Shown one piece after another: positions 3,640-41,289 of a stretch of DNA of 49,224 bases. Location: positions 1 through 49,224 of the IMG/VR virus record IMGVR_UViG_3300033146_004398, one strand, 5' to 3'. The notes under the pieces are model-generated. The model saw only the letters and a program-made list of their open reading frames with translations. It was not told the DNA's origin and ran no database searches. Position 1 is the first letter of the stretch. The number at the start of each line of letters is the position of its first letter. This DNA is from a virus. A program made the position numbers and the translations under genes.

Positions 3640-4164
3640 GTGAATAACTATATAAAAAATTATAAAAACTTCTTATACGAACAAGATATGGCAATGCCAG
3701 GAATGGATCCAATGGCAGATCCAAATGCACAACCGGCTTCTAAAAAAAATTCAATATATGAATTTATATTTCTAGAAGATGGTAAAAAGATATCAAGTGT
3801 AGGACCACTGCAAAAAGAATACGCACTATATAAAATAAAAGAAAGTTCATTGGACGATTGGATTGAAACCAATATAGCTAAGGATATGCCAGGTCTTCAT
3901 GAAGAAATGCCATCGAGTATAGACACTATTAAAACTGATATTAAAAATGCAGTTACTGGAGAAAAATCTTCATTATCTCATTTAGATAAAGAAATATTAA
4001 AGAAATTTAAAAATTCTGTAAAGGCGGGTGTTATTGAAGGGACAGATGCAATAGAAAAAGGAAATACTCTAGAAACAATAACTGTTGAATTTACAAAAAA
4101 GGGAATTCCAGTTACTGCAGATTTAGCTCCAACATTTTTAGATACTAGGAGTTCTAAAAAATAA
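3640..4164 (+). CDS. Putative head-packaged protein with capsid-targeting-like leader
   Basis: A 174-residue protein of unknown function starting at GTG. Its N-terminus, MNNYIKNYKNFLYEQD, contains the aromatic-rich leader shared by several proteins in this window and an LYE site after which a T4-type prohead protease would cut (after E14). A Met/Pro/Ala-rich low-complexity stretch follows (about residues 17-33), then a globular part of about 130 residues with no family that I recognise. It is preceded by a TATAAATA late box, unlike the metabolic genes around it, and followed 9 bases later by a metalloprotease-like protein that also has an [I/L]xE leader. I infer a virion internal protein; the enzymatic role, if any, is unknown. 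Confidence 0.6.
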   Translation: MNNYIKNYKNFLYEQDMAMPGMDPMADPNAQPASKKNSIYEFIFLEDGKKISSVGPLQKEYALYKIKESSLDDWIETNIAKDMPGLHEEMPSSIDTIKTDIKNAVTGEKSSLSHLDKEILKKFKNSVKAGVIEGTDAIEKGNTLETITVEFTKKGIPVTADLAPTFLDTRSSKK

Positions 4165-4173
4165 TATGCTATT

Positions 4174-4932
4174 TTGAAAAAACATTTACTCGAATATTAT
4201 GAATTTTCAAATTCGATATTACCAATACCTAAATTAGCATTAGAACTATCAAAGGTTTTTTTAAATAAACTTATTAAAAATAAAAAAGTACCATTCTCGT
4301 ACACTGAAATATATGGTGCAGAAATAGATAAAGAATTTATAAAATTTGATATTAAATTCATAGTTAAAAAAACTAACGAAAGTTCTCTCAAAAACGATAA
4401 TTATTTTAAAGGTAAAAACCAAGCGGATTTATTCTATAAGAAAAATGGTTATGCACTAACTGGAAATACATTTATAAAAAATGGTGAAATACCAACAATA
4501 GAAATAATAATGGTAATTAACATAGGACTGAATGAATATGCATATGAAAAAGTGTATTATAATATAAATGGCACGATATCCCATGAAATAAATCACTTAA
4601 AACAAACTGGTTGGAATAGAGATATAACAAATTTTAATCCATCATTAGATAAACATAAAAATAATCGTAAAAATTCAAAGAATAATTATAAATATTTTAC
4701 TTTACCCGAAGAGATAGAATCGATTGTATATGGAATGAATAATCAATCTAAACTACAAGGTGTACCAATAGATGAATTATTTGATGAATATTTAGATAGT
4801 TATTTAGCATCTAATTTTATAAAACCTTCTCAAAAAAGTAATATAATAAAGAATTGGATATCATATACGCTAAAATATCATCCTGGTGCGCATTTTAGTG
4901 ATAAATATAAGAGTATAATCAATAATATTTAA
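4174..4932 (+). CDS. HExxH zincin-like metalloprotease, putatively head-packaged
   Basis: A 252-residue protein, apparently starting at TTG (the nearest ATG, at 4166, runs into a stop after three codons). H137-E138-I-N-H141 is the classic zinc-binding and catalytic motif of zincin metallopeptidases; a glutamate-rich segment around residues 179-182 could supply the third ligand. The leader MKKHLLEYYEF contains an LLE site near the N-terminus, compatible with prohead-protease processing. It follows the previous putative packaged protein after 9 bases and probably shares its late promoter. Substrate unknown. Two other HExxH proteins lie at 39423-40214 and 40510-41289. The motif alone is short, so the peptidase call is moderate. 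Confidence 0.55.
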   Translation: MKKHLLEYYEFSNSILPIPKLALELSKVFLNKLIKNKKVPFSYTEIYGAEIDKEFIKFDIKFIVKKTNESSLKNDNYFKGKNQADLFYKKNGYALTGNTFIKNGEIPTIEIIMVINIGLNEYAYEKVYYNINGTISHEINHLKQTGWNRDITNFNPSLDKHKNNRKNSKNNYKYFTLPEEIESIVYGMNNQSKLQGVPIDELFDEYLDSYLASNFIKPSQKSNIIKNWISYTLKYHPGAHFSDKYKSIINNI

Positions 4933-4959
4933 AACCTTATTAAAACCATTAGTAAAAAA
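4931..4959 (+). promoter_or_regulatory. ECF-type promoter element AAAACC-N15-GTAAAAAA
   Basis: AAAACC at 4931-4936, then exactly 15 bases, then GTAAAAAA at 4952-4959; the Hc1-like start codon is 23 bases on. The same two-part element with the same 15-base gap recurs before replication genes elsewhere in the window. It overlaps the end of the preceding gene. Confidence 0.55.
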
Positions 4960-4982
4960 TAACAAAAATAACAACATATATT

Positions 4983-5246
4983 ATGAATAATGAATTTGAA
5001 AAACTTAAATTAGCAATTTGCGAATGTAAAATGTCTGTTTTCTCAGAAATGGAAAAATTAATTGAATCTTCTTTAGAGGATGTTGAAAAATTCTATGAAA
5101 AAGGAAATAGAAGTGCAGGAAGTCGTATTAGAAAAAATGCACAACTTGTTAGAAAATTAATTCATCACCCTACTATTAGAAAAGAGATGAATAAAATAGA
5201 AGACGCAGCAAAAGAACTTAGATCTAATATATTAGACTCTAAATAA
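4983..5246 (+). CDS. Hc1-type histone H1-like DNA-binding protein
   Basis: An 87-residue, lysine/arginine-rich, helical protein. The segment VEKFYEKGNRSAGSRIRK matches the signature of the Bacteroidota Hc1-like histone H1 family (KFYxKGNxxAGxRxRK), and the length is typical of that family. Such proteins bind DNA and shape the nucleoid. It has its own upstream ECF-like promoter element and is followed by the SSB gene behind a second one, so it is likely expressed early or middle along with replication genes. A role in organising phage or host DNA is inference. Most likely captured from a Bacteroidota host. Confidence 0.75.
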   Translation: MNNEFEKLKLAICECKMSVFSEMEKLIESSLEDVEKFYEKGNRSAGSRIRKNAQLVRKLIHHPTIRKEMNKIEDAAKELRSNILDSK

Positions 5247-5260
5247 ATTAAGTAATTAAT

Positions 5261-5289
5261 AAAACCATTATACTACATAAAGTATAATA
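5261..5289 (+). promoter_or_regulatory. ECF-type promoter element AAAACC-N15-GTATAATA
   Basis: AAAACC at 5261-5266 and GTATAATA at 5282-5289 with a 15-base spacer, 37 bases before the SSB start codon. This is one of the two best examples of the motif (the other is at 24801-24829, identical in both halves). Confidence 0.65.
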
Positions 5290-5326
5290 TTACAAATAAT
5301 AAAAATAACTAAAAAAATACTAAATT

Positions 5327-6352
5327 ATGAATGACTTTTTTGATTTACCAACAGACTCAGTATCTTCCTCAACAAAAGGCGGGTACGAAAAGAAAATAGA
5401 CGAAAACATATATGATCCAAATCCAGATACGTCTGGTAGTGGCGTATATAAATCAGTTTTTAGATTTATTCCAAACCTAAGAGAACAAGCAGTATCTAAA
5501 TTCACTAAATATAGTGCAAAAATATATAATCCACTGACTAAAAAATCAATGGTATTAGATTGCCCTTCAAATGAGGGTAAACCATCTGTTTTATGGACAC
5601 TTAGTACTATTTTAGGAAGATTATATAAAGAAGAACCGACAATAGTTAAAGAAATAAATAAGAACTTTTCAAGGTGGTATACACACTATTCTTATGTTTA
5701 TATCGCAAAAGATCCACAGTTTAAAGACTTAGAAGGAAAAATTAAAGTTTTTAAATATAGAGCACAAATAAATGATTTGATAGAGCATCAAATAAATCCA
5801 GAAGAAGATGGGTTAATAGAAGGTGTTAGTTCGATAAATCCTTTTCATTTATTAACAGGAAAAGATTTTTTATGTGTAGTAAGTAAAAAAACAAAGGATT
5901 GGAGAGATTGGACTAAATGTAAATTCATGGATGAAGTTACACCATTCAGATTTAAAATAGCTGATACCGAAGTAGTTATGAAAGATGAACAGGGTGCTAT
6001 TAAACTGGTAACTGAATTATTTGAAAAAACTGCACCTACATTAGATGAATATCAACACATTAGTTGGACAGATGAAACATATGTACAAGTAGCTGAAGCA
6101 CTAAAAGCGGCTATTGGATATAAAGAAGTAATCAATATGTTAATTAGTGAAACACGAGACGAAAAAATGAAAACTCTATTGAGTGATACTGTTACTACAT
6201 CTGATGATAATGTAAAAGATACCGTAGATGATACCAATGATGTTTCATTCGCTGGAACAACAGAAAATATGGTAACTGAAAATGTTGACACTAGTAATTC
6301 TAATGATAAAAATGAAGAGGATGAATATAAAGATATCTTCGCAGATTTATAA
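5327..6352 (+). CDS. 32: Single-stranded DNA-binding protein, gp32-like
   Basis: T4 gp32-type SSB, which coats single-stranded DNA at the fork and recruits polymerase, helicase and recombination proteins. Order of parts: a flexible N-terminal tail, an OB-fold core opening with FRFIPN and continuing through the YNPLTKKSMVLDCPS and GKIKVFKYRAQI segments typical of gp32, and a long acidic, Ser/Thr-rich tail from about residue 280 ending DEYKDIFADL, the protein-interaction tail. At 341 residues it is some 40 longer than T4 gp32, mostly in the tail. I do not see the zinc-binding Cys/His set of T4 gp32. An ECF-like promoter precedes it; a 111-residue protein follows. Confidence 0.85.
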   Translation: MNDFFDLPTDSVSSSTKGGYEKKIDENIYDPNPDTSGSGVYKSVFRFIPNLREQAVSKFTKYSAKIYNPLTKKSMVLDCPSNEGKPSVLWTLSTILGRLYKEEPTIVKEINKNFSRWYTHYSYVYIAKDPQFKDLEGKIKVFKYRAQINDLIEHQINPEEDGLIEGVSSINPFHLLTGKDFLCVVSKKTKDWRDWTKCKFMDEVTPFRFKIADTEVVMKDEQGAIKLVTELFEKTAPTLDEYQHISWTDETYVQVAEALKAAIGYKEVINMLISETRDEKMKTLLSDTVTTSDDNVKDTVDDTNDVSFAGTTENMVTENVDTSNSNDKNEEDEYKDIFADL

Positions 6353-6374
6353 AAAAAAATAGAAAAATAGAAAA

Positions 6375-6710
6375 ATGACAAAAGTTAAAGATACACCCGT
6401 TGAAAAGGAAAGCGTTACAAAACCATCTAATGAAAATGTAACGCCACCCGTTGAAGATCCAAATAAAATAGTAATGTTAGGTAATATTTCATACACTGAT
6501 GAAAAACAATATGAAGAATGGTTATCTAATATGGATATTAATCAAGCTATATTCGTATTAGTTGCATCTGCTAATTATACTCAATCAAAGGGTGTTTATA
6601 GTTTATCTGAATCTGAATTAATGTCAGCTGCTATTAGAACAATAAAGAAGAATTCTAGTACAACAAAACCGGACGTAGTTACTAATACAAATGATGAATC
6701 TTCAAAATAA
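6375..6710 (+). CDS. Small protein of unknown function, between SSB and RNase H
   Basis: 111 residues. The first 30 and last 20 are disordered, rich in Pro, Thr, Ser, Asn and Lys; the middle (about residues 33-92) looks helical and globular, with the stretch YTDEKQYEEWLSNMDINQAI. No family recognised. It sits 22 bases after gp32 and 6 bases before the RNase H/flap nuclease, so is probably co-transcribed with both and may help at the replication fork; that is guilt by association only. Confidence 0.6.
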   Translation: MTKVKDTPVEKESVTKPSNENVTPPVEDPNKIVMLGNISYTDEKQYEEWLSNMDINQAIFVLVASANYTQSKGVYSLSESELMSAAIRTIKKNSSTTKPDVVTNTNDESSK

Positions 6711-6716
6711 AAATAA

Positions 6717-7835
6717 ATGGTTTATTTAATAGATGGAAACGCATATATTAATGTAGCTATCAATGTTACAAAGAGAATATTATATCGAGATAAATCTATT
6801 GGAAAGGAATATTATTCACAAGATATTTTTAATGAAGGAAGCTTTATATTAAAGGAAACTACTAAAATAAAATTCAGAGATTTTTGTTTAAATTATTTAG
6901 TTTCAATGATTGCACCCGTTGGTAATATTTCCAATGAGGTGCACATTGTTTTTGATTCTAAAAGTTGGAGAAAAGAGTACATTAAAAATTTCTTTGACGA
7001 TAAGCCAGATTTAAATTTCAAGTTTAAATATAAGGGTACTAGAAAAAAGGATGATCATAAGCGTTTGTTTTTTGAATACTTCCAAAAAGAAATACAACCA
7101 CATTTAATAAAAAATGCGGGTATAAATTTTCATAGAATAGATGGATTAGAGGGAGATGATATAATAGCATGCTTATGTGAAACTTTAGATGATAATATAG
7201 TTATTTATACAGTTGATAAGGATATTATACAATTAGTTAAAAATAAAAAAAAGTACACGGTTGTTATAACTCCTAAAATGATGACTAAACATAAGAAAAT
7301 ATACTTTACACAAAGGGATATTAATATAAACGAAGATTTCTTTAATTTAGATAATTCTGGCATAGGTAATGATATTAATTCAATTATTTCTAATTTTGAG
7401 AAAAAAGGATTTGTAAAATACGAAATGTGCCCCGCCGAATTATTATTGTCTAAAATATTCGGAGGAGACAAGTCAGATAACTTACCAAGGTTGCATAAAA
7501 TGACACCATCTAAGGTTAAAAAAATGACTAATTATGTATTAGAAAAATATCCCGATTCTGTTTTTGAAAAAATAGATAGTGTTTTTGAAGTAGATGATAA
7601 CGAATTTATGAACACATGCTTAGATGAAATAATAAGTTTAAATAATATTAAAGATGAAAAACTTAAAGAAGAATTAGCATACCATTTTTTACTTAATATA
7701 AAAACAATTAGGTTATCTACCAGAATGATACCACAATCTATAAATAAAAATATTAAACTTTACGAAAATATAAAGTATAATAAATTTAACTATTCTAAAC
7801 TAATAGAAACAAAAAACAAATCAGTACTTATATGA
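6717..7835 (+). CDS. rnh: RNase H / 5'-flap nuclease, T4 rnh-like
   Basis: 5'-to-3' nuclease of the FEN/PIN-like family that removes RNA primers from lagging-strand fragments. Metal-binding acidic motifs are in family order: LIDGNA at the N-terminus, VFDSKSWRK, the basic YKGTRKK arch region, GLEGDDIIA, YTVDKDIIQLV and GGDKSDNLP near the helix-hairpin-helix. At 372 residues it is longer than T4 RNase H (305). The stop overlaps the start of the GroES-like gene by four bases, giving a tight cassette with SSB upstream. High confidence in the family, good confidence in the role because of the gp32 neighbour. Confidence 0.88.
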   Translation: MVYLIDGNAYINVAINVTKRILYRDKSIGKEYYSQDIFNEGSFILKETTKIKFRDFCLNYLVSMIAPVGNISNEVHIVFDSKSWRKEYIKNFFDDKPDLNFKFKYKGTRKKDDHKRLFFEYFQKEIQPHLIKNAGINFHRIDGLEGDDIIACLCETLDDNIVIYTVDKDIIQLVKNKKKYTVVITPKMMTKHKKIYFTQRDININEDFFNLDNSGIGNDINSIISNFEKKGFVKYEMCPAELLLSKIFGGDKSDNLPRLHKMTPSKVKKMTNYVLEKYPDSVFEKIDSVFEVDDNEFMNTCLDEIISLNNIKDEKLKEELAYHFLLNIKTIRLSTRMIPQSINKNIKLYENIKYNKFNYSKLIETKNKSVLI

Positions 7836-8131
7836 AACCGTTATACGAAAGAATTTTAATAAAGCCAGTTAAAAAAGAAACTTCTACTAAATCAGGAATA
7901 CTTTTACCTGGAAAAGCTGTAAAAAGACCAAACATAGGAACAGTGGTTGCTTGTGGAGAAGGTGCTCCACATAATCCAATGAAAGTTAAAGCCGGAGATA
8001 TAGTTCTATGCAATAGATTTGCTGGAATAGATATTTCTTATGAAAATGAACCACATTACGTGGTAATGTCAAATGATGTAATCGCCATTTTAGATACCAT
8101 TGGTGAAGTTCAACTAGACGAATATGAATAA
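7832..8131 (+). CDS. groES: GroES-like co-chaperonin (gp31 counterpart)
   Basis: A 99-residue Cpn10: LYERILIKPVKKE at the start, the mobile-loop region TSTKSGILLPGKA, and the GTVVACGEG and VKAGDIVL strands are all canonical GroES features. It would cap the host GroEL. In T4, gp31 replaces GroES so that GroEL can fold the major capsid protein gp23; a gp23 homologue is present at 43164-44855. Unlike T4 gp31, which is very divergent, this protein keeps clear GroES sequence, suggesting separate capture from a bacterial host. The gene overlaps rnh upstream (4 bases) and the next gene downstream (8 bases). Confidence 0.92.
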   Translation: MKPLYERILIKPVKKETSTKSGILLPGKAVKRPNIGTVVACGEGAPHNPMKVKAGDIVLCNRFAGIDISYENEPHYVVMSNDVIAILDTIGEVQLDEYE

Positions 8132-9167: not shown

Positions 9168-9194
9168 AACTTTTTAAAAAAGTTTAGTATAATA
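9166..9194 (+). promoter_or_regulatory. ECF-type promoter element (AAAACT variant) before the RNA locus
   Basis: AAAACT at 9166-9171, 15 bases, then GTATAATA at 9187-9194: one mismatch to AAAACC in the upstream half, perfect downstream half and spacer. A hairpin-forming palindrome (9167-9185) overlaps it and could instead serve as a weak terminator for the gene upstream. Transcription would start near 9200, at the head of the structured RNA. Confidence 0.5.
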
Positions 9195-9200
9195 TATAAT

Positions 9201-9669: not shown

Positions 9670-9682
9670 AAATACTACTAGC

Positions 9683-9802
9683 ATGAAAAAATCTAACTTC
9701 AGAAGACTTCTTAAATTTGCTAGACAATGGGATACTTTTAATTTCAAACAATATAGAAAATATTTAGATGCAAAATCTAAATGGAAAACTAAAATGAATT
9801 AA
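9683..9802 (+). CDS. 39-residue basic protein of unknown function
   Basis: ATG at 9683 to TAA at 9800-9802. The peptide begins MKKSNFRRLLKFARQWDTF and is rich in Lys, Arg and aromatic residues, with a net positive charge of roughly ten. It starts 14 bases after the T-run ending the structured RNA and its stop overlaps the stop of the convergent kinase-like gene by four bases, a compact arrangement that supports a real gene. It might be expressed from the same promoter as the RNA. It could bind nucleic acid, even that RNA; nothing in the sequence proves this. Confidence 0.45.
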   Translation: MKKSNFRRLLKFARQWDTFNFKQYRKYLDAKSKWKTKMN

Positions 9803-11049
9803 GCAGTTTTTTTAAATTCTATAGCTACTCCCATTTTAGATACACTTGCACTTTTACCCGCTTTTAATTCCTTTAGTATTTTTCTCATATCTTCTACTTC
9901 AATAGTTCTCGGTTCGGTTTTACCACCTTCTATCCAACGATTAAATGTTACTTTACCATTATCTTTATTTTGTGACAAACTCTTAAAATTTAATGCATCG
10001 GTTGATGTCCACCCCTTTACATATATAGAATATTTATACTTATTATTGCCAGTGATTACAAATATCGAATTTGATTTACTGTTATCTTTTTTAATAGTTA
10101 TGCTTTTACCACCAGAACTCCAAAACTTAGCTTCTTGTTTATTCTTAGAGGATTCATTTAGCACTGCTTCGTTTATAACAATATCTTTGAACTTATCCAA
10201 ATAAACTATTCTATCTGAATCTATATTTATTAATTGCATATTTGGTGTTATGTATTTATCTTTAACTTTAATATAGTGTACATCATTGTCCTTTATACCT
10301 AAATCACTTATGAAACTATCAATAAACTCATCATCGTCTATGCTCTTAGATAATAAATCCTTTAATCCATTCTTTGTTAATTTAGTTGATGGATCACCTT
10401 TATTCTCATCAGGTTTTTGTTTTGTTGCCTCATACTTCCATAAATATTGTTCAAATGCTTTAGTTGGATCTCTCCAATTAGGGTCTTTTTTACCTACTTT
10501 ATTTCTACCAACTATATTTTTAATTAACATATATATTGGTGCATGTAAAAGTATATTATGTTTAATATTTGGAACGTAATTCAAAATATCATTAGTGACA
10601 TCATCAAAAATTACCTTATTCCACTTACCGGTCTTAAACTCCTGTGCCATATACCAAGCAGCAGCGTTTGCAGTAGGACCAGCAACATATTCATTTTCCT
10701 TTGGGTTTGGTGGTACATCTTTACCGTCCTTTCTATATAAACCAGACACAATCCCAAAATCATGACCCTTTGCCCAATCTCTAATACTTGGTGGGTCAAA
10801 CGCCAATCTCCTTTCTTCATTTTCAGGAGAATAACCATTAAAATCATCTGATGCAATAATAACCCATTGATTGGGGTCTGTTGCTTTATGAAAAGGGATT
10901 GCGTTTAATTTCTTACTTACCCATGATTTACCAGCAGATGATGTTCCATCTATTAATATAGTAGATTTAGTATCCGATTTTTTATTTTTTACAAGAGAAT
11001 CTTCATTTAAGATCTTCCATTCTTTAAATGGTTTAATATAAGTAAGCAT
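9799..11049 (-). CDS. CPT-like P-loop kinase with capsid-targeting-like leader
   Basis: 416 residues. A P-loop, ILIDGTSSAGKSW (G35-S42), with the GTSSAGKS form typical of chloramphenicol-phosphotransferase-like kinases, is followed by IIASDDFNGY, matching the substrate-side acidic motif of that family, and VIFDDV as a likely Walker B. The N-terminus, MLTYIKPFKEWKILNED, has the shared aromatic leader and an LNE site (cut after E16). A second LNE lies near residue 298, before a separate C-terminal domain of about 115 residues that I do not recognise. The gene lies in a late-strand block directly after a small membrane peptide. I infer a kinase delivered with the virion; its substrate could be a small molecule, nucleotide or protein. 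Confidence 0.65.
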   Translation of the reverse strand: MLTYIKPFKEWKILNEDSLVKNKKSDTKSTILIDGTSSAGKSWVSKKLNAIPFHKATDPNQWVIIASDDFNGYSPENEERRLAFDPPSIRDWAKGHDFGIVSGLYRKDGKDVPPNPKENEYVAGPTANAAAWYMAQEFKTGKWNKVIFDDVTNDILNYVPNIKHNILLHAPIYMLIKNIVGRNKVGKKDPNWRDPTKAFEQYLWKYEATKQKPDENKGDPSTKLTKNGLKDLLSKSIDDDEFIDSFISDLGIKDNDVHYIKVKDKYITPNMQLINIDSDRIVYLDKFKDIVINEAVLNESSKNKQEAKFWSSGGKSITIKKDNSKSNSIFVITGNNKYKYSIYVKGWTSTDALNFKSLSQNKDNGKVTFNRWIEGGKTEPRTIEVEDMRKILKELKAGKSASVSKMGVAIEFKKTA

Positions 11050-11055
11050 TCTTCA

Positions 11056-11154: not shown

Positions 11155-11168
11155 AGTGTATATAATAT

Positions 11169-11176
11169 TATTTATA
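11169..11176 (-). promoter_or_regulatory. T4-like late promoter box TATAAATA
   Basis: TATTTATA on the + strand, hence TATAAATA on the - strand, 15 bases before the membrane-peptide start at 11154. It abuts the hairpin at 11176-11207, so the sheath transcript ends and the next late transcript begins in the same short gap. Confidence 0.5.
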
Positions 11177-11207: not shown

Positions 11208-11229
11208 AATTAGATCTATAAAACAATCT

Positions 11230-26616: not shown

Positions 26617-27008
26617 AAAAAGAAAGATATTTAGATATAGTTTTTATAAAGGAGTTTAAGTTTTTTATAAAAAAATTTAATAAGAAACAAAAAGAAGATT
26701 ACATGTTAAATGTAAATAAAATAATAAAGGATAAATTTGGAATAAAATTCTTAGTTCCTAATCCAGTGCAAGCATTCTTATTGAATTACGAAATAAAAAA
26801 ATTAATGGATAAAGCTATTAATATAAAAAATGAAAAGTATAATAGAATAATATTCTTAAATTCTAATATAACTACTTCTGGTATTCACAATACTCTTGAA
26901 TTTTTAAAGGTGGAATATCCTATTATTGGATTTAATTATTACATAATAGATCCAAAGGAAGATTTTGAAAAATCTTTATTTAAAACTAAGAAAATAACTT
27001 TTATTTAG
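26613..27008 (+). CDS. Protein of unknown function ending the operon
   Basis: 131 residues, basic, with a helical, lysine-rich N-terminal half and a C-terminal half of alternating strands (NRIIFLNSNITTSG, IIGFNYYIIDP) suggesting an alpha/beta fold. No catalytic motif recognised. It overlaps the preceding gene by four bases and its stop overlaps the stop of the convergent late gene at 27005 by four, so the two transcripts meet here with no room for a terminator hairpin. Confidence 0.5.
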   Translation: MKKERYLDIVFIKEFKFFIKKFNKKQKEDYMLNVNKIIKDKFGIKFLVPNPVQAFLLNYEIKKLMDKAINIKNEKYNRIIFLNSNITTSGIHNTLEFLKVEYPIIGFNYYIIDPKEDFEKSLFKTKKITFI

Positions 27009-28051
27009 CAACTTGGACCTTCGCCGTAGCACGATTCTCCATCGGGTCCTTCTCCAAAGCTAAGTAAATCTCCTAAACTAGATAAATCATTTGACTTTCT
27101 TGAAAATTTACTTTTCCTATTCTTAGGATTTGGATTATTTCTCCTTCTTGGAGGATTTTCTGGACCTTCTATAGTATCTATTTCTATATCTGGTTTCATT
27201 ATTTCTGTTTCTGTTTCTGTTGGTTCTACATCAAAATCATTGTCTAAACTATTAATAGCGTCAACTGCTAATATCTTAGAAGCATCTTCTTTAGATATAT
27301 TCATATACTTCATTAAATCTTCAACTGCATTTTCTATTGATAAATCTCTATATTCATCTGTATATCCTTTCCTATTCTTAGGATTAGGATTGTTTCTCCT
27401 TCTTGGAGGATTTTCTGGACCTTCATCTGTATCTATTTCTGTGTCTACTTCCGGTTCAGCTACTTCCGGTTCAGGATCTAACACTTCTGTTTCATATTCA
27501 TCATACCAATGTTCTGATACGCTATTAAATTGATTAAAGCTTGTACACCTACCTTCTGTTAGCAAACTATTTCTTTCTTTCTTTAGTTTAGCTAATTTAT
27601 TAGCATCGTTATCAAGTGACTTTTTAACATTATTATTTAATTCAACGACCGTTTTAATAGATCCAGTTAGTTTAATGTCCTCGTTTATAAAACTTTCAAA
27701 ACTAGTTTTTACACTTTCGTCAACTTCATATTCTCCAACTTCAACTATTGGTATACCAGTTAGATATGGATCAGCATAAGTAGTTGGTTTTTTCCCCTCT
27801 TGTTTATATACAAGATCGTTTGTCATTGCTTTATATGTAGAATCATAGTGTTGACTTTTAAATAGAGGGTCTCTTTCAACCACTCTTCTATAATCTTTTA
27901 ATTTGTTTTCAGACTGTGCAATTTTATTCTTTTTACCTTTAGCATCTCTATCATATACTAATGATGCATCTCCTCCGAAACCTGGGTTTTTTAAATCCAT
28001 ATAACTATCGAAATTTAAAACATCTCTTCTATGTACATCAAATAAATCCAT
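27005..28051 (-). CDS. Virion-block protein with a duplicated RRRNNPNPKNRK segment
   Basis: 348 residues. The N-terminal 150 or so look folded; an Asp/Glu/Thr/Pro-rich region follows (about 195-220), and two copies of a 19-residue basic, Pro/Asn-rich segment (starting EGPENPPRRR) flank a helical stretch of about 66 residues that includes DLMKYMNISKEDASKIL. The tail ends in a Gly/Ser segment with two Cys (ESCYGEGPSC). I do not recognise the family. It lies 18 bases downstream of the tail tube gene on the late strand, with TATAAAAT-like sequence in that gap, so a virion or assembly role is likely. The internal SFESFINED resembles the leader motif of packaged proteins but is not N-terminal. Confidence 0.5.
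   Translation of the reverse strand: MDLFDVHRRDVLNFDSYMDLKNPGFGGDASLVYDRDAKGKKNKIAQSENKLKDYRRVVERDPLFKSQHYDSTYKAMTNDLVYKQEGKKPTTYADPYLTGIPIVEVGEYEVDESVKTSFESFINEDIKLTGSIKTVVELNNNVKKSLDNDANKLAKLKKERNSLLTEGRCTSFNQFNSVSEHWYDEYETEVLDPEPEVAEPEVDTEIDTDEGPENPPRRRNNPNPKNRKGYTDEYRDLSIENAVEDLMKYMNISKEDASKILAVDAINSLDNDFDVEPTETETEIMKPDIEIDTIEGPENPPRRRNNPNPKNRKSKFSRKSNDLSSLGDLLSFGEGPDGESCYGEGPSC
27113..27424 (-). repeat. Pair of 57-bp near-identical direct repeats inside a late gene
   Basis: Copies at 27113-27169 and 27368-27424 are identical at 55 of 57 bases and in frame, both coding for the same 19 residues (EGPENPPRRRN then NPNPKNRK). The spacing is 255 bases start to start (85 codons), so the helical module between them may have been duplicated or could be lost by recombination. 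Confidence 0.85.
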
Positions 28052-29497: not shown

Positions 29498-29755
29498 TTA
29501 TTTTGCTAAACTATCTCTAGTTTTAGTATAGTTTTTCCATAGTTCATTATATATGTCACATGATGCACCCAGGAAATTAATAATACCTACGTATTTTCTC
29601 TTATCCGTTCCATCCATTTTTGCTATTTTCTTACCAAGCTTCTTAGCATCATTAGTTGTAAGATCCTCATCTGGATCTTTTCCTACTAATTTTTTAAGAG
29701 CACCCTTTTTTTCAAGAATAGCAAATTCACTAAATGATAGAGCCCTATTTCTCAT
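29498..29755 (-). CDS. Small protein with capsid-targeting-like leader
   Basis: 85 residues. The N-terminus, MRNRALSFSEFAILEKK, is close in form to the T4 capsid-targeting peptide (a Tyr/Phe-x-Glu-Phe core ending in Glu) and contains an ILE site after which a gp21-type protease could cut (E15). The remainder is lysine-rich and helical, including LTTNDAKKLGKKIAKMDG, and could bind DNA. It is in a late block next to the tail tube. I infer a small packaged protein; an alternative is an assembly factor for the tail. Confidence 0.5.
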   Translation of the reverse strand: MRNRALSFSEFAILEKKGALKKLVGKDPDEDLTTNDAKKLGKKIAKMDGTDKRKYVGIINFLGASCDIYNELWKNYTKTRDSLAK

Positions 29756-32727: not shown

Positions 32728-32738
32728 TATAATATAAT

Positions 32739-32972
32739 ATGCAAAGATTAACTATACATTTAACTAACGCACCTTTTGTAACTAGAGAGCGTAAACAATT
32801 AATGGGAAAAGATAATATACCATATTGGAAACCAAAAAAACAAAAGTGTATAGTAAACACTTTATCATATACTGTTAAAACTAAAAATGAGGCATTGGCA
32901 ATTGTATCATCAATAGGATCTACATATGGTGCTCCTAAAGTTAGTAAGTGGTATCTTAGTAATATAAAATAA
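32739..32972 (+). CDS. Small basic protein of unknown function
   Basis: 77 residues, basic and beta-rich, beginning MQRLTIHLTNAPFVTRERKQ, ending in a region KVSKWYLSN. No family recognised. The start follows a run of ATATA repeats; the stop shares a base with the topoisomerase medium-subunit start (TAATG). Confidence 0.5.
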   Translation: MQRLTIHLTNAPFVTRERKQLMGKDNIPYWKPKKQKCIVNTLSYTVKTKNEALAIVSSIGSTYGAPKVSKWYLSNIK

Positions 32973-34321: not shown

Positions 34322-34333
34322 AAATTAAATAAA

Positions 34334-34606: not shown

Positions 34607-34622
34607 TAATTATATTAATTTA

Positions 34623-35738
34623 CTATTTCTTACCTAATACATATAACATTTTTGCGTGTTCATACAGGGCTAAACAAAATGAATCATATGAATAGTATGG
34701 TAAATTATATTCATGTGCAGTCTTCTTTACAATATTAGATATTTTATTATAATGTACATGACATATGTTTGGAAATAAGTGGTGCTCAACTTGATAATTT
34801 AATCCACCAACATACCAAGAAAATAATTTTGAGTTTGGAGCAAAATTAGTTGTATTCATTAATTGATTTTCTGACCAGCTTAGTTTAATATCGCCGTGTT
34901 CATTTGTTGTTTCAAATGAAGAAGTTGGCATCACATGTGCCAATTGAAAAATTAAAGATAAAGTTATTCCTGAAATAAAATGCATTAATAAAAAACATAA
35001 TATTGTTTGCCACCACAATAAGCATGAAAAAAATAATGGCAAACCTAACGTGAATATAAAGTATAATGTTTTAGTTATAATTAGTGTACGCAAAAGATTA
35101 TCACTAGTAGTTTCTTGAGTTCTTATTAAATTTTTTTTCTTATATCTTTTCCATTGAGAATAATCCTTTGTTGTAGCCCACACCATTGTCATCATTCCAT
35201 ATAAAAACCAAACGTATATAAATTGAAATCTATGCCACTTTAATAACTTTTGTTTTGGTGACATTCTTATTAATGACTCTTTATTAATATCTTCATCCAT
35301 ATCCGCTATGTTTGTATAAGTATGATGCAATAAATTATGTTGAATTTTCCAGTTAACATCATTGCCCCCTATTAGCCAGATTAATTTACCTAATAATGAA
35401 TTTACTATCTTATTTTTTGAATATGATCCATGATTTGCATCATGCATAATGGATAGTCCAATTCCTGACATTCCAAATCCCATTAATATCCACATCAATA
35501 TTGTTAATCCGGACGATTCTATATTGGAAATAATTATTGTGAATGGTATTAAATAGAGCAAAAGCATGAATATAGTTTTAAATACCATATTTGAATTTGC
35601 ATACTTTGATATTTTCTTTTCTTTAAAATAGGCATTAACTCGTTTTATAAGATCTTTATAAAACATATTTTTCCTATCTTTTTTAAATTTTACTATACGA
35701 TAGGAATCTGACATAGTTATAAATAATTTATTATTCAA
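34623..35738 (-). CDS. Membrane fatty acid desaturase
   Basis: 371-residue integral membrane di-iron desaturase, introducing a double bond into lipid acyl chains. The three histidine boxes are intact: H99-x3-H103 (HDANH), H134-x3-H138-H139 (HNLLHH) and Q316-x2-H319-H320 (QVEHH). Four or so hydrophobic segments lie around residues 53-97, 118-126, 217-242 and 246-270. The QxxHH third box is that of front-end / linoleoyl-CoA-type enzymes; no cytochrome b5 domain is fused. On the late strand, as the last gene after the MoxR/VWA module. Probably a host-derived metabolic gene changing membrane fluidity during infection. Confidence 0.88.
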   Translation of the reverse strand: MNNKLFITMSDSYRIVKFKKDRKNMFYKDLIKRVNAYFKEKKISKYANSNMVFKTIFMLLLYLIPFTIIISNIESSGLTILMWILMGFGMSGIGLSIMHDANHGSYSKNKIVNSLLGKLIWLIGGNDVNWKIQHNLLHHTYTNIADMDEDINKESLIRMSPKQKLLKWHRFQFIYVWFLYGMMTMVWATTKDYSQWKRYKKKNLIRTQETTSDNLLRTLIITKTLYFIFTLGLPLFFSCLLWWQTILCFLLMHFISGITLSLIFQLAHVMPTSSFETTNEHGDIKLSWSENQLMNTTNFAPNSKLFSWYVGGLNYQVEHHLFPNICHVHYNKISNIVKKTAHEYNLPYYSYDSFCLALYEHAKMLYVLGKK

Positions 35739-35749
35739 CTAAAACTTAA

Positions 35750-36154
35750 TTAGTCGTCGTCTACGCCCCAATCGTCGTCATCTCCAAATAATATATCATC
35801 CTCTATTTCACCACCGTCGTCTTCTATTCCAAGTTTTTGTCTTTCTTCTGAATCTAACTCCTCTGCATATTCTTGACCAGACTCTTGTCTTTCTAAAGTT
35901 TCTACACATTCATCATACCATGGTTCTAAAGCTTCAACAATAGCTTTAATAGAGTCACCATCGGTTATAACCTCTTTTATTTTTGAAATATTATCACTTT
36001 GATGTATCCAATCCTTTAATTCATTAGTTGCTGCTACGGGGTTCTTCATGGAGCCCAGTGTTTCTGCAACTTTATCCTTTAAAGCATTAATTATTTCTGC
36101 ATTACCTGCATGTTCTAGAATTAATTTAAATTTATTATAATCTTTTATCCACAT
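35750..36154 (-). CDS. Acidic protein with capsid-targeting-like leader
   Basis: 134 residues. The leader MWIKDYNKFKLILEHAG has the shared aromatic pattern and an ILE site (cut after E14). The middle is helical; the tail, from about residue 95, is extremely acidic (runs of D and E ending DDDDWGVDDD). It lies 10 bases downstream of the AAA+ ATPase gene and is probably the last packaged member of the module. Highly acidic tails occur on DNA mimics and on scaffold-interacting proteins; I cannot choose between these. Confidence 0.5.
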   Translation of the reverse strand: MWIKDYNKFKLILEHAGNAEIINALKDKVAETLGSMKNPVAATNELKDWIHQSDNISKIKEVITDGDSIKAIVEALEPWYDECVETLERQESGQEYAEELDSEERQKLGIEDDGGEIEDDILFGDDDDWGVDDD

Positions 36155-36164
36155 TATTATTATA

Positions 36165-38309
36165 TTATTTTTTTCTTTGTTTTATTGAATCAAAAAAGTT
36201 TTTAAACGAGGCTGGCCATTTATCTTCAAGCTTTTTAATCATTTTATGATACGCATTTATAAATAGTTCTTTCTTCTCTTTATATTCTTCTTTATCGTTT
36301 GAATTATTTATCTTATTATCAAGTGCTTTTTCTATTCTATTGTACATTGGGAACCCAGTTTTTATAAAATTAGTTATTGCTTGTGTTTCATCATTCATAT
36401 TTTTTAAAAAATTAAGATAATTAAAAAACTCTGGAATACCATATTGACCTCTCTTAGATGATGCATATCCTGAAATAGCTGATAGAAATGCAAATCCCTC
36501 TTCGCTTATTCTACTTCCTTTTCTAGTTGAATCTGATAATCCTTTTTCTCCAAGCTGCTTAATTATTTTATCTCTGTCTGCTTTTTCTAATTTTTTCCAA
36601 TCAAATACCTTTTTAACTAAACTTAAATCCACCTTACTTTTTAAGTTTAGAAATTTCATAAATGCGTTACCTGCAACGTCTCCTAAATCACCATTAACCG
36701 TTTTACTTACCCAATCAGGTAAAGCTTTATATAAATCTACCAATGATTTATATTTAGTATTAGTTCTATGATCTCCTTTATACATTGCAGTAGATAGTGC
36801 TATTCCTAAATCTGACCATACTCGCGGTGCCGGCTGTACTCCTTGTCCAGCGGTGTCTACTTCTCCTTCTTTTTTTCTATAAAAATATTGATATTCTCCT
36901 CTTAAATCTTCTTTACCAGATGCACTATCAATTATATTTTTTAAACCCTCATTATCATATTCGTTCATTTCTAAGAAATCTATTATTTCTTGTGGTATTT
37001 TCCATTTCTTAGTATTTGTATCATCTTCATCTTCATTATCCCATACTCTACCTTCTGCTCTAGCGTAATCCGATATCCAAGTTGGTAATGAAGGAACCAA
37101 ATTAAATACTCTAAATCTACCGGTTGATGCAACAGCTGCATCCATTTCAGTTATTGCATTAGATGTAGTAACATCTTTATCTCTATTACATGCCGCCACT
37201 ATATGCCAATTTTGAGGTAATCTATATGTTCCAATTGTTCTTAAACTTATAAAGCTTAAACATGATCCTAATACAGATTGATTTGCTCTATTTATTTCAT
37301 CTAAAAATATAATTCCACCTATTTCATTGGGTTGTTCTTCTCCTACAACTCCTTTTTTACTAAATTGATCTGTATATTCAGTTTTACCGGTTTTTATATT
37401 TTCCCTTGGAAAAATTGCTGGTGGTGCAAATGTAGTTTTATCATCTTTGATATGCGGAAGTCCTAAAAAGTCAACATTTTCCATATTAGCAAGAGGAATT
37501 GATATAACTGGAATATTCAATCTTCTACCCGCTTGTAATACAACTTCTGTTTTTCCTATACCGGGTGCACCCCATATTAATGGTGCTTTATATATTCCAC
37601 CTTTGGATTGTCCATCTATTATACTAACTATTTGATCTACTAATCCTTCTATACCAATATTTTCACATGAAACATCTACGTCTGATCTTAAATAACCTCC
37701 AGTAGAACCCCTAGTATCATTACTTTCAAATGTTTTTATATACTTTAAACTTTCTTCTATATCAATATCTGTTGTTAAATCAATTTCATCAGAAACTGGA
37801 TCTTCAGTACCACGTTTAGTATAAAAATCATATGGAGATTTTCCTTCTATATCTGAGTGTTTAAAATCATCTAATTCTATATCTAAACCCTTTGGCATTT
37901 CTACTTTTCTAGGAATTGTTATTTTCCACGCCTTTCCATTTCCCATTAAATTTTTACCAGCGGATTGACCCTTTATCGTATTCCAATACCATGCATTTGT
38001 TCCTGAATAGTATCCACCTTCTTCTAGTTTAAGTTCACCCGAATTTGGATCAGATACTATTTCTTTACCTAAGTTATCGCTTACACCTTTTCCTTTTCCA
38101 AGTAAGCTATTAAATATACTTTTTAATTTATTTCCAGATTCTTTAACGGTTTTTACTAAAGAAGCATACCACCCAAGTGCATCCTTAGATTTTTCTGGTA
38201 TTTTTTTATCTTTTGCTTGTATAGACTTTCCAAATTCATCTCCTAAGTCTCTTGATGCTGAATCCTGTTTCCAATCTTCAAATATTTCTACGTATTTGCT
38301 CATAATCAT
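36165..38309 (-). CDS. MoxR-type AAA+ ATPase, putatively head-packaged
   Basis: 714 residues. AAA+ core with Walker A GAPGIGKT (247-254), Walker B IIFLDE (333-338), sensor-1 region AACNRD (373-377) and an arginine-finger area near STGRFRV; this order is that of MoxR-type ATPases, which work with VWA-domain partners to remodel proteins or insert metal. About 210 residues precede the core, and a long helical C-terminal region follows it. The leader, MSKYVEIFEDW from the second Met (38303), holds an IFE site. The second Met gives an 18-base gap to a late box, so I prefer it as the true start. The VWA and metallopeptidase partners are directly upstream. Confidence 0.75.
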   Translation of the reverse strand: MIMSKYVEIFEDWKQDSASRDLGDEFGKSIQAKDKKIPEKSKDALGWYASLVKTVKESGNKLKSIFNSLLGKGKGVSDNLGKEIVSDPNSGELKLEEGGYYSGTNAWYWNTIKGQSAGKNLMGNGKAWKITIPRKVEMPKGLDIELDDFKHSDIEGKSPYDFYTKRGTEDPVSDEIDLTTDIDIEESLKYIKTFESNDTRGSTGGYLRSDVDVSCENIGIEGLVDQIVSIIDGQSKGGIYKAPLIWGAPGIGKTEVVLQAGRRLNIPVISIPLANMENVDFLGLPHIKDDKTTFAPPAIFPRENIKTGKTEYTDQFSKKGVVGEEQPNEIGGIIFLDEINRANQSVLGSCLSFISLRTIGTYRLPQNWHIVAACNRDKDVTTSNAITEMDAAVASTGRFRVFNLVPSLPTWISDYARAEGRVWDNEDEDDTNTKKWKIPQEIIDFLEMNEYDNEGLKNIIDSASGKEDLRGEYQYFYRKKEGEVDTAGQGVQPAPRVWSDLGIALSTAMYKGDHRTNTKYKSLVDLYKALPDWVSKTVNGDLGDVAGNAFMKFLNLKSKVDLSLVKKVFDWKKLEKADRDKIIKQLGEKGLSDSTRKGSRISEEGFAFLSAISGYASSKRGQYGIPEFFNYLNFLKNMNDETQAITNFIKTGFPMYNRIEKALDNKINNSNDKEEYKEKKELFINAYHKMIKKLEDKWPASFKNFFDSIKQRKK

Positions 38310-38320
38310 ATTATATACAT

Positions 38321-38328
38321 TATTTATT
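38321..38328 (-). promoter_or_regulatory. Late promoter-like box AATAAATA before the MoxR-type gene
   Basis: TATTTATT on the + strand, AATAAATA on the - strand, 18 bases before the second Met of the ATPase. It overlaps the last codons of the VWA gene, so could be coincidental. Confidence 0.35.
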
Positions 38329-39418
38329 TCTTAATATCTTTCATAAACTTATTAAAGTTTAATGGAATAACTTTTCCAAATGGTATATTATTTGGTCCAC
38401 CGTTACCATCTACGGTTCCAAAAACAGTTGGACTATCGTAGTGTTTTTCAGGATAATCACCATATAACCATGCCCATAGGAAATTTTTACCCCTATTTGC
38501 GTATTTTGTTGAAGTTGGCATTCCATTCCATAATCCATCGCTAAAGAATATTACTAAAGATGGATTGAGATTATATTTTTCTAAACCTTCGAAGAACGTA
38601 TCTATATTATTCCAACCTGAACGTATATCCCCTATCTTAAAGTCGCTTTTTCCACCTTTTACTTCTATTAATCTATATGCTTCATGATCCCATAGCATTA
38701 TATTATAATCTTTTATATTATTTTCATTCATAATATTTGATATTTCACTAGCAATTAGCATTATCTCGTCTGGACTCATAGATCCACTTGTATCATATAC
38801 TATTAGCATATCTGATATTGCATCTTTCTGTTTTCTTCGTCCAGGTATCCCTCTAAAATCTCCTCCTCTTCCTGCGAATCTTCTATTTGGATAAACTTGA
38901 TTTGTTTTCTTAGATACTGAATTAATATACCTACGTAGTATTCTTTTCCAATTTACTAATGATTTTGATCTTTCTATCATTACTTCTCCAGATCCACTTC
39001 CACCCTTGAACATATCTTTCATTGTTCCTTGTTTTTCTTCTTCTCTTCGTCTTCTTTTTTCAATATTTTCACTTTGTTTTTGTGAAATATCACTTTTAGA
39101 TGGTTGTGTGGCTTCTCCGTCTTTGTAATCTCCTTCATTTCCTTCAGTACTACCTTCTTTTTCTAAATTACTGCTAGTTTCTCCTTTATTCCAATCTTTT
39201 TCATTTTCTATTAGTTTTCCTATTGCCTCTGCTAAAGCTGCATCTGCTTCCGATAATTCTTGGGGTTCTCCAGCGTCCATTTCACCCGGAGGAGCTATAT
39301 TTATAGCTGGATTACCATTCGCATCCCTTGTAATTGGTCCACCGTCTCCACCGCTTCCTCCACCTCCTTGTGATGGTTCATATACTATTTTTACTGCATT
39401 TTCTTTAGATATCTTCAT
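38324..39418 (-). CDS. VWA-domain protein (C-terminal half of a DUF2201-like system)
   Basis: 364 residues. The C-terminal half is a von Willebrand A domain with a full MIDAS: D209-T-S-G-S213 (YDTSGSM), a later Asp in LWDHEAY, and FFSDGLW. The N-terminal 150 residues are low-complexity, Gly- then Glu/Lys-rich (e.g. EKRRRREEEK). In bacteria, DUF2201-type proteins join a metallopeptidase-like domain and a VWA domain in one chain beside a MoxR ATPase; here the two halves are separate adjacent genes (this one and 39423-40214), four bases apart. The N-terminus MKISKENAVKIVYEPS has VYE but not the [I/L]xE pattern, so packaging is less clear for this member. Confidence 0.75.
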   Translation of the reverse strand: MKISKENAVKIVYEPSQGGGGSGGDGGPITRDANGNPAINIAPPGEMDAGEPQELSEADAALAEAIGKLIENEKDWNKGETSSNLEKEGSTEGNEGDYKDGEATQPSKSDISQKQSENIEKRRRREEEKQGTMKDMFKGGSGSGEVMIERSKSLVNWKRILRRYINSVSKKTNQVYPNRRFAGRGGDFRGIPGRRKQKDAISDMLIVYDTSGSMSPDEIMLIASEISNIMNENNIKDYNIMLWDHEAYRLIEVKGGKSDFKIGDIRSGWNNIDTFFEGLEKYNLNPSLVIFFSDGLWNGMPTSTKYANRGKNFLWAWLYGDYPEKHYDSPTVFGTVDGNGGPNNIPFGKVIPLNFNKFMKDIKK

Positions 39419-39422
39419 ATTA

Positions 39423-40214
39423 TTAAGATTTTAATATTTCTTTTGCTCTTTCTAATGAAATTTCTTCCACTTCAAAATCTTCATTTTCATCAATTCCATT
39501 AACTATTCCCCATGTTTTATTTTCTTTATCAAATATAACATCTCCAATTTCTATTTCATGATTACCTTCTCCATCTCCTCCATCGTCATCTTCGGGTTCC
39601 TGTGGATTATTTTTAATTATATCAACTAGTTTCATAAAGATTGCTTCTGCTGTGTACCCGTCCCATTCTTCTTTCTTAAAAATATATCCATCAGCCGCTG
39701 CTATAGGTTTATCGAAAAATAAACCATCTTTTAATGGTACTACATCTTTCATATTTGCTATATGTGGATTTATTTCTAAATCCGTAGCAATATTCCATAA
39801 AGTTTGATGTAATCTTGGGTTTATTCCTTCTATAGTTCCTGGGTGCCTAATAAAATGCTCCCATTGATTGTGCATTATTTCATGTAGTATAACAAATGTA
39901 AATTCATCCTGTGATATTCTTTCTCCAAAAAATGGATTTATAAACAAGTGTACACCGTCTGTTGCCATTGTATTTATTGGATTTCCGCCAATATTGGTAA
40001 CCATTCTAACTTCTAAATCAGATAGGAGTGCATCTGGATGATAAAAATGTCTACTTGGGTTTCTTAACCAGAATCTAGTATAATTAAATTTTTCTATAGT
40101 ATTATCGGTAGCTCTTTTAAGAGCATTATCTAACTCTTCAAATAGTTTAATATGATGAGAACTTTTTGAAATATTTCTATTCCAATTTACATAATTTTTA
40201 ATATAAATGGCCAT
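39423..40214 (-). CDS. Putative metallopeptidase (N-terminal half of a DUF2201-like system)
   Basis: 263 residues. H111-E112-I-M-H115 (ILHEIMHNQWEH) and NIATDLEIN (D145) form the zinc site seen in the putative metallopeptidase domain of DUF2201 proteins. MATDGVHLFINP upstream is also typical. The N-terminus MAIYIKNYVNWNRN shares the aromatic leader of packaged proteins, with an LFE site further in (IKLFEEL, E26). The C-terminal 60 residues contain a very acidic Gly/Asp stretch and a small beta domain (GDVIFDKENKTWGIVNG). It is the first gene of the three-gene module with VWA and MoxR-type partners. Confidence 0.72.
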   Translation of the reverse strand: MAIYIKNYVNWNRNISKSSHHIKLFEELDNALKRATDNTIEKFNYTRFWLRNPSRHFYHPDALLSDLEVRMVTNIGGNPINTMATDGVHLFINPFFGERISQDEFTFVILHEIMHNQWEHFIRHPGTIEGINPRLHQTLWNIATDLEINPHIANMKDVVPLKDGLFFDKPIAAADGYIFKKEEWDGYTAEAIFMKLVDIIKNNPQEPEDDDGGDGEGNHEIEIGDVIFDKENKTWGIVNGIDENEDFEVEEISLERAKEILKS

Positions 40215-40254
40215 ATAGTTTTATATATTCACTATTTAATAGTATAATATTGCT

Positions 40255-40533
40255 ATGGAAAAAATAATAGAAACTCTATCCTTAAAAAATAAAAGAACCC
40301 TTTGTTTAGATCTCGGTGATACATATATTACTATAGAAAATAGAGGAACTTTTAATGGAAAAAGACAATTTTCATGGTCAGCACTAGCGCCCACTGAGGG
40401 AATGGAATGTTTTTACGATAGTACATTAATAGGAGAAACTGGATTAAAAACAAGAATAGAACTATTAAGTGGTGGAAAAATATCAGATATGCAAAAACAT
40501 GCAATAGACTTATTTCTTGCTAGCCGCTCTTAG
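40255..40533 (+). CDS. Small protein of unknown function, opposite the late block
   Basis: 92 residues with strands such as TLCLDLGDTYITIENRGTF and a C-terminal helix. No family recognised. It lies alone on the + strand between two - strand genes; its 3' end overlaps the 3' end of the zincin gene at 40510 by 24 bases. GTATAATA at 40242-40249 sits five bases before the ATG, as the downstream half of the ECF-like element does at 24822, but no AAACC is found 15 bases further up. Confidence 0.5.
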   Translation: MEKIIETLSLKNKRTLCLDLGDTYITIENRGTFNGKRQFSWSALAPTEGMECFYDSTLIGETGLKTRIELLSGGKISDMQKHAIDLFLASRS

Positions 40534-41289
40534 TATATTTTTTTCTTTTTCAGTTAAATCAGACCAACTTCCAGCAGAAAGTTTATCTAAAATTTTATCT
40601 ATTATAGATTGATTATTAAAGGTAGGTGCTTTATTAATAGTTGTAGTTCCCCTGGCAGTTGGTGTGTTATATTGCCTATATGTAATAGGTTTTGGCTTAA
40701 TTTTAAGCTTATTATACATATATTCATTTACTTCTTTAACAGACGTCATTCCTTTTTTCTTAACCTCTTCTCTAAGACCTTCTAAATGACTTTTAAAGTA
40801 TGATTTATCAAATTTACTATAAAATGGTAATATTTCAGTTTTATTTTTTATATCATGACTTTTTAGTAGATTATTTGCTTTTAAAACTGCCAATCTATCT
40901 GCAACTAATTCTATATTCATTAATAAATTAACAGCTTCATCTATATCTATATTAGAATTATATGCATCCCACACAACGTCTTTTCCATACTTAGAATATT
41001 GATATTGATGAACTATTTCATGTAATATAGTATATAATGTTTTACCCAGATCACCACTCAGTATTGATTTATTTATTATACATTCATCTGTTTTAGATAT
41101 ACCCATTGCACCATATATTGTATCAAACTTAATCGCAGGACACCCTGAAGCAACTATATAATCTGATAATTCTTGAAACATATCGTCATTTCCTGGATAT
41201 GCCTCTTGAAGTGCCATTATAAAGTATGATAATCCATTTGTATTATTAGATGCTTCAAATAGTCTTGAATTTAATATAAAGTTTTTCAT
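40510..41289 (-). CDS. HExxH zincin-like metalloprotease with capsid-targeting-like leader
   Basis: 259 residues. H90-E91-I-V-H94 (ILHEIVHQYQY) followed by E127 in NIELVADRLA fits a gluzincin/minigluzincin zinc site (HExxH ... ExxAD). The leader MKNFILNSRLFEAS has an LFE site with Ala after it, the best match here to a T4 gp21 cut (after E12). The C-terminal third is Lys-rich with a Thr/Gly linker and a last helical segment. It is a separate gene from the DUF2201-like peptidase and not obviously related to it in sequence. I infer a protease delivered with the head contents; the substrate is unknown. Confidence 0.62.
   Translation of the reverse strand: MKNFILNSRLFEASNNTNGLSYFIMALQEAYPGNDDMFQELSDYIVASGCPAIKFDTIYGAMGISKTDECIINKSILSGDLGKTLYTILHEIVHQYQYSKYGKDVVWDAYNSNIDIDEAVNLLMNIELVADRLAVLKANNLLKSHDIKNKTEILPFYSKFDKSYFKSHLEGLREEVKKKGMTSVKEVNEYMYNKLKIKPKPITYRQYNTPTARGTTTINKAPTFNNQSIIDKILDKLSAGSWSDLTEKEKNILRAASKK

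Follow-up and report, generated by a model that had tools for sequence, protein, structure and literature searches.

Probable capsid-targeting leaders of the T4 type in a marine T4-like phage and in huge phages, and their likeness to the repeats of a putative protease-scaffold fusion

Known head-targeting leaders and the phage studied here

The capsid-targeting sequence (CTS) of phage T4 has been known since 1996 and is regarded as an oddity of a few T-even internal proteins, one of which, IPI, is a restriction inhibitor. In the internal proteins IPII and IPIII it reads MKTYQEFIAE. Here we describe N-terminal leaders of similar build on proteins of a T4-like phage, represented by a 49,224-base virus fragment from IMG/VR (IMGVR_UViG_3300033146_004398; "the window" below means this whole stretch), of its relatives, and of huge phages. 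We think it very probable that these leaders are CTSs of the T4 type, which would dock cargo proteins in the prohead core and then be cut off, with packaging of the carriers as the prediction. We take them for CTSs because their conserved positions are the four that govern targeting and processing in T4. Mutagenesis of the T4 CTS showed that targeting depends on Tyr4 and Phe7 and processing on Ile8 and Glu10; the T4 internal proteins co-purify with the core scaffold, and both they and Alt are injected (PMC9026906).

How do the leaders compare with described systems? Like them, the CTS of IPII and IPIII is a short N-terminal peptide with aromatic residues at positions 4 and 7 and an [IL]xE end, stands on unrelated bodies, and accompanies a gp21-type protease and a gp23 capsid. 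Unlike it, the leaders described here have far more numerous carriers, enzymes among them, and are often longer, with 0-2 additional residues before [ILV]xE; moreover, a repeat scaffold with the leader motif appears here to be fused to the protease, and in T4 gp21 and gp22 are two proteins and such repeats are absent. In phage P1 the N-terminal 30 residues of DarB likewise suffice to send a large enzyme into the head, but as described the Dar proteins lack a consensus and P1 apparently lacks a separate scaffold, which sets that system apart (PMC9024508). The ejection proteins of SPN3US and phiKZ also have protease-removed N-termini thought to target the prohead, but these propeptides mostly exceed 100 residues and have another cleavage motif (PMC5694885). 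In the half of the phiKZ genome scored, unlike here, the motif is not enriched (1 of 145 N-termini).

The window comes from a marine phage. Its genes are T4-like and include the major capsid protein gp23 (43164-44855, minus strand; PF07068, E=5e-38), a tail sheath, ribonucleotide reductase, a family B polymerase, RecA, a DnaB-type helicase, two topoisomerase subunits, thymidylate synthase and a gp21-type protease.

An N-terminal motif in the clade and in huge phages

Gene starts were assigned by a simple caller written for this analysis, and the pattern [YFW]xx[YFW]x{0,2}[ILV]xE, the strict motif, was scored in N-termini (residues 1-30) and in internal windows. The relatives are six contigs encoding close relatives of the window's protease protein and three more contigs found through the pattern MKNYIKN[FY]; two of these three (G007 and G009) share leader proteins, and in the third (G008) enrichment of the strict motif is absent. 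Pooled clade counts refer to nine contigs, the window and eight relatives, with duplicates removed, and cluster counts to 225 protein clusters from the first seven contigs.

A first-pass annotation of the window had named eight proteins whose leaders end in [I/L]xE, and had proposed a motif search over the N-termini of relatives. All eight open reading frames lie where it placed them and have the N-termini it gave, two of them behind non-ATG starts (GTG at 3640, TTG at 4174). The tripeptide itself did not hold up as a marker: 26 of 57 window proteins have it in residues 1-30, as against 20 of 56 in residues 31-60, roughly what chance would give. Since it is about equally frequent in both, [IL]xE alone marks nothing, and we dropped it as a criterion. 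The search over relatives did bear out the leader. In the pooled clade the strict motif is found in 44 of 604 N-termini versus 17 of 1840 internal windows (p=3.8e-15). By clusters it is found within residues 1-30 in 21.4 of the 225 versus 0.5-2.4 in any other 30-residue window, and control patterns in the same clusters give 0.3 (scrambled), 2.3 (reversed), 2.9 (D for E), 0 (Q for E) and 6.0 (K for E). The clade signal is specific to the Glu and to the order of the residues. That Glu lies at residues 10-16 in most cases; counting back from it as position 0, the profile has I at -9, Y or F at -6, F or Y at -3, and I, L or V at -2. The leader would then be an N-terminal peptide of 10-16 residues with the form (hydrophobic)-x-x-[YF]-x-x-[YF]-(0-2)-[ILV]-x-E.

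Might the conserved stretch work at the RNA level, in translation initiation, rather than as a peptide? Its location at gene starts would fit, but codons at the conserved positions match genome-wide usage, and Y and F, like I, L and V, swap freely. Because the codons follow genome usage, the constraint acts on the peptide, and we give the RNA explanation almost no credence.

The enrichment holds in four independent lineages: the window clade and the huge phages LR756501, LR756500 and LR745206. In LR756501 (735 kb) the strict motif is found in 82 of 942 N-termini versus 40 of 2769 internal windows (p=5e-23), and its ungapped form in 60 versus 12 of the same sets; with a second form (aromatic-x(1-2)-[ILV][FY]E) included, about 108 proteins match, of which an estimated 10 to 30 are background. 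For LR756500 the ungapped form gives 25 of 635 N-termini versus 13 of 1805 internal windows (p=2.5e-7), and about 24 genes have leaders resembling MKYIKEYEEF[IL]xE. The count for LR745206 (400 kb read) is 40 of 521 versus 35 of 1636 (p=3e-8). The three huge phages thus carry leaders on roughly 25 to 100 proteins per genome, and when 85 leader proteins of two of them are aligned, the leader Glu is the sole invariant column. The many carriers suggest that related giant phages may inject a large set of proteins with their DNA. There is no leader signal in Prevotella phage Lak-C1 (400 kb read; motif in 2 of 411 N-termini) or in the half of the crAss001 genome scored (0 of 39 N-termini).

One might suppose that AT-rich genomes, whose N-termini are rich in K, N, Y, F, I and E and in which [IL]xE is a common tripeptide, yield such leaders by chance. 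The lack of enrichment of [IL]xE alone agrees with this, as do the marginal enrichment in the window by itself and the slightly raised control patterns at the N-termini of LR756501. Yet the strict motif reaches p=4e-15 to 5e-23 in relatives, its scrambled, D and Q variants are not enriched in the clade, and Lak-C1, phiKZ and crAss001 are clean negatives. For the clade chance is refuted, and as a general account it is very improbable; it could still apply to single loose members such as the leader of the protein at 39423.

T4 itself has few matches only, including MKTYQEFIAE at two genes. Its form of the leader, MKT[YF]xEFIxE, is present in at least 120 IMG/VR stretches; among those listed, 132 leaders fall on 60 body families, and most of them lie at a gene start or close to one. 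A scrambled pattern with the same composition gave 4 stretches. Bacterial and archaeal genomes (257 Gb) have the T4 form 12 times, mostly within longer frames. Leaders like MKTFxEF are known from cyanophage proteins, and a few such were seen in P-SSM2. An exact-phrase search of the literature for the leader peptide returned nothing useful.

Another motif, DPYGEE[DEN..]W, occurs in 91 of the 942 proteins of LR756501 (W02 in coordinates below), with 42 of its 105 copies at the extreme C-terminus (for example L183:12934-12957; L177-L213). It is associated with the leader proteins of that phage (32 of 108, p=1.8e-10), some IMG/VR contigs carry its DNA pattern densely (94 stretches), and it looks like a second shared tag.

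The window leaders and their bodies

Four of the eight window leaders fit the strict motif, with YKNFLYE in the protein at 3640, FKEWKILNE at 9799, FSEFAILE at 29498 and YNKFKLILE at 35750. Aromatic residues at the two T4 targeting positions characterize the clade, and strictly these four proteins of the window. The leaders at 4174 and 40510 match strictly or nearly so via orthologues only, and those at 36165 and 39423 match loosely; [I/L]xE follows close behind the leader in seven of the eight and is displaced in the protein at 39423. A further strict match, in the topoisomerase at 32972, is a false positive: it belongs to a GyrA-type N-terminus and is conserved together with the body, so that we rejected it as a ninth carrier.

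The leader MNNYIKNYKNFLYE (3640-3681, plus strand) begins a protein of unknown function (3640-4164). The GTG start is supported because an orthologue has the same leader behind GTG (VVKRYIKDFNNFILIEQD...). Orthologues in G002 and G005 have VVKRYIKDFNNFILIE, again with a GTG start, those in G003 and G004 have FSYSDFIKVNE, and the orthologue leaders run directly into Q[DE]M[AG]M. On the minus strand, MLTYIKPFKEWKILNE (11002-11049) leads a P-loop protein (9799-11049) for which no orthologue was found in the contigs compared, and no Pfam, PHROG or PDB match in profile and sequence searches. MRNRALSFSEFAILE (29711-29755, minus strand), on the small protein 29498-29755, is strict in seven of seven orthologues. 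The protein at 35750-36154 starts with MWIKDYNKFKLILE (36113-36154, minus strand), and its orthologues with MNKHIFSYYDFIKE and MGKHIVSYKSFLVLE (YYDFIKE, YKSFLVLE).

Of the looser leaders, MKKHLLE (4174-4194, plus strand) precedes an HEXXH (HEINH) protein (4174-4932) whose orthologue leaders MKNLISYSNYVLE and MNILGYNEFLKE are strict, with YSNYVLE and YNEFLKE forms. MSKYVEIFE (38277-38303, minus strand), which begins at the second ATG, 38303, leads a MoxR-type AAA+ ATPase (36165-38303; AAA_5 E=6.9e-9, phrog_1297 E=2e-35); its KYVEIFE belongs to the second form and is KYIKVFE in G002, G006 and G007. The DUF2201 putative metallopeptidase at 39423-40214 (PF13203, E=1.1e-11) starts with MAIYIKNYVNWNRN...IKLFE (40137-40214, minus strand), in which YIKNYVNW has no E in register and IKLFE ends at residue 26. 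Its partner, a VWA/DUF2201 C-terminal half (38324-39418, minus strand; phrog_1314 E=1e-23), has no clear leader. LR756500 has both parts, metallopeptidase and VWA, fused into one 491-aa protein that adjoins a MoxR gene and starts with the clean leader MKYIKSYENFIFE. Last, MKNFILNSRLFE (41254-41289, minus strand) leads an HEXXH (HEIVH) protein (40510-41289). Its MK and FE are invariant across four orthologues (forms FIKPFSLFE and FIETFKIFE), the structure model has pLDDT<50 over the first 17 residues, and a fold search with the model gave no match at E<=0.001.

If the leaders act as we propose, an AAA+ ATPase, a P-loop protein and three proteins with HEXXH would be among the cargo of the window phage; three small unknowns carry leaders as well. 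The replication and nucleotide enzymes named above for the window are without a leader. Leader proteins of relatives also include a cell wall hydrolase (PF07486) and Phage_lysozyme2, and those of the huge phages a PNK3P phosphatase, a methyltransferase, DHH, aldolase and LRR proteins. Leaders in relatives are plainer than those of the window: four consecutive genes in G004 have MKNYIKNFTVFSINE, MKTYIKNFNSFVLNE, MKTYIKNFNSFILNE and MNRILLFNEFLNE, and others read MKNYIKNFKGFIAE, MKFIKNFKTYVSE and MVKGYTDYLKE. L014:1212-2848 holds a run of four small genes whose leaders are nearly identical and whose bodies differ, which resembles a T4 internal-protein locus.

Are the tagged proteins simply paralogues of one internal-protein family, whose bodies diverged and whose leader came by descent rather than by mosaic fusion? 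Some bodies are related, and leader genes do cluster in LR756501 (24 adjacent pairs versus 6.2 when shuffled). But the bodies extend from MoxR AAA+ and DUF2201 to the hydrolase, lysozyme, phosphatase, methyltransferase and DHH proteins just listed, and the T4 form alone stands on its 60 body families, so that we regard common descent as a remote prospect.

A fatty acid desaturase gene (34623-35738; PF00487, E=1e-37) adjoins the tagged block at 35750-40214.

The putative protease-scaffold fusion and a possible docking partner

The gp21-type protease reported in the first-pass annotation is indeed encoded, at 44873-46861 on the minus strand (Peptidase_S77, PF03420, E=1.3e-10; phrog_207, E=7e-35 across residues 6-449). 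It has His (DHP) and Ser (SSR) motifs, with H81 and S136-S137 invariant in seven homologues, and T4 gp21 has NHPP and SSRG at matching places. What that annotation missed is that the protease continues into a putative scaffold region with eleven tandem 14-residue repeats (residues 301-447; 45521-45961, minus strand), kept in G001-G006 and in LR745206 and LR756501. Nine repeats end in E, one in D and one in N, and ten fit Yxx[YFH][ILV]x[ED]; examples are NKSINYQDYLKE, NKSINYQSYIAE and KGISYAEYIAE. The homologue has about 12 repeats in LR745206 and 15 in LR756501 (YSEYIAENLDKNI...), and in LR756500 the array is degenerate. A gp21-type protease fused to a putative scaffold of tandem repeats with the grammar of the leaders appears to be new here. 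Compared with gp22-type scaffolds, the array has acidic ends in 10 of 11 repeats and no sequence link to gp22.

The repeats have I at -8, Y at -6, Y at -3, L, I or V at -2 and E at 0, so that leaders and repeats agree in a hydrophobic residue at -9/-8, aromatics at -6 and -3, [ILV] at -2 and Glu at 0. Under a profile made from the repeats only, 10 of 225 N-termini reach a score of at least 6; other windows give 1-4 such hits, and shuffled N-termini 2. Three huge phages have both leaders and repeats, and Lak-C1, which has a related protease without repeats, is also without leaders. Two small stand-alone proteins run from a leader straight into scaffold-type repeats (W01 460435, MNYEDYIAESLEKNISYSEYISENLN...; W02 716346). 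Small proteins made partly of such repeats lie at W01 460435-460635 and at W02 619760-620383 and 716346-716576.

What might the leader dock to? A literature account of what exactly the T4 CTS binds was not found. What the sequences show is the motif itself, that it sits at the N-terminus, is conserved and occurs on unrelated bodies, and that the scaffold repeats share its grammar; docking, cleavage, packaging and injection, and the scaffold array as docking partner, are our inference. During assembly of the prohead core the leader's aromatic pair would dock the protein onto the core; this core would be made of the protease-scaffold fusion (44873-46861), and [YF]xx[YF][ILV]xE closes the fusion's 14-residue repeats. 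The protease would then cut after the Glu of both leaders and repeats, destroying the scaffold and setting the cargo free in the head; the cargo would later be injected together with the DNA. The leader may accordingly be a single scaffold repeat placed on cargo, which replaces a repeat of the fusion and is released by the cut that dismantles the scaffold. Docking by such mimicry is a further and less certain step than the identity of the leaders as CTSs; we put it forward tentatively, as a proposal that may well prove wrong.

Perhaps, instead, the leader is a protease substrate site or an element of head assembly and not a cargo address. On that account the repeats, the leaders and the protein at 27005-28051 would have the motif in common because the aromatic pair is part of protease recognition. 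The scaffold array is not a leader, nor are the two conserved internal copies in 27005-28051, also missed in the first-pass annotation: FESFINE (residues 118-124; 27680-27700, minus strand; F118, F121 and E124 invariant in four orthologues) and FNQFNSVSE (residues 172-180; 27512-27538, minus strand; F172, F175 and E180 invariant in four orthologues). In both copies the two Phe and the Glu are invariant and neighbouring residues vary, and this protein is possibly a cleaved core protein. In T4, though, the aromatic positions are assigned to targeting and not to processing (PMC9026906), and at residues 10-16 of unrelated enzymes cutting alone would be purposeless unless the enzyme were already in the prohead. 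We consider a substrate site alone unlikely. The protein at 27005-28051 is a head-region protein with an acidic, proline-rich C-terminus.

Several points weigh against the capsid-targeting interpretation or against its scaffold extension. The window alone is weak (5 of 57 N-termini versus 4 of 180 internal windows, p=0.04), and four of its leaders fit loosely or through orthologues alone. In LR756501 the N-termini also have somewhat more matches to the scrambled and reversed patterns (30 and 22 versus 18 and 12), and therefore part of the excess there reflects N-terminal composition. The MoxR/DUF2201 pair has no leader in LR756501, and the leader is therefore an optional add-on. At the second aromatic position leaders mostly have Phe and repeats Tyr; the structure model of the protease-scaffold protein is poor (mean pLDDT 39) and unusable; and T4 gp22 has no repeats although T4 uses the same CTS, so that CTS function does not in general depend on repeats. 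We found no virion proteomics of these phages in the literature. The first-pass claim of a T4-like capsid-targeting leader is only partly supported: comparative evidence beyond that annotation (the enrichment by position, the conservation in diverged orthologues, the unrelated bodies in independent lineages and the tandem motif in the protease-scaffold) supports it well, but its criterion was not diagnostic, only four of eight leaders are strict, and packaging and cleavage stay predictions.

If the proposal is right, the CTS would serve gp21-protease phages in general as a cargo address, copying the scaffold's own repeat, and one generic address could suffice to bring as many as about 100 different proteins into the head of a huge phage. 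Scaffold-repeat mimicry would also say what the T4 CTS binds, and short peptides could be used to test the docking mechanism. Scanning for leaders would then predict which of the many unknown proteins in huge phages are injected as infection begins, among which anti-defence and takeover functions would be expected.

As the first-pass annotation noted, the gp23 of the window has LFE (residues 54-56; 44688-44696, minus strand), possibly a propeptide cut site; the T4 gp23 propeptide ends in FGSFLTE at residue 65. A DnaJ-type chaperone (46919-47905) adjoins the protease gene. A GroES-like reading frame was recognised by eye at 7832-8131, and a cytidylyltransferase gene lies at 47969-49200.

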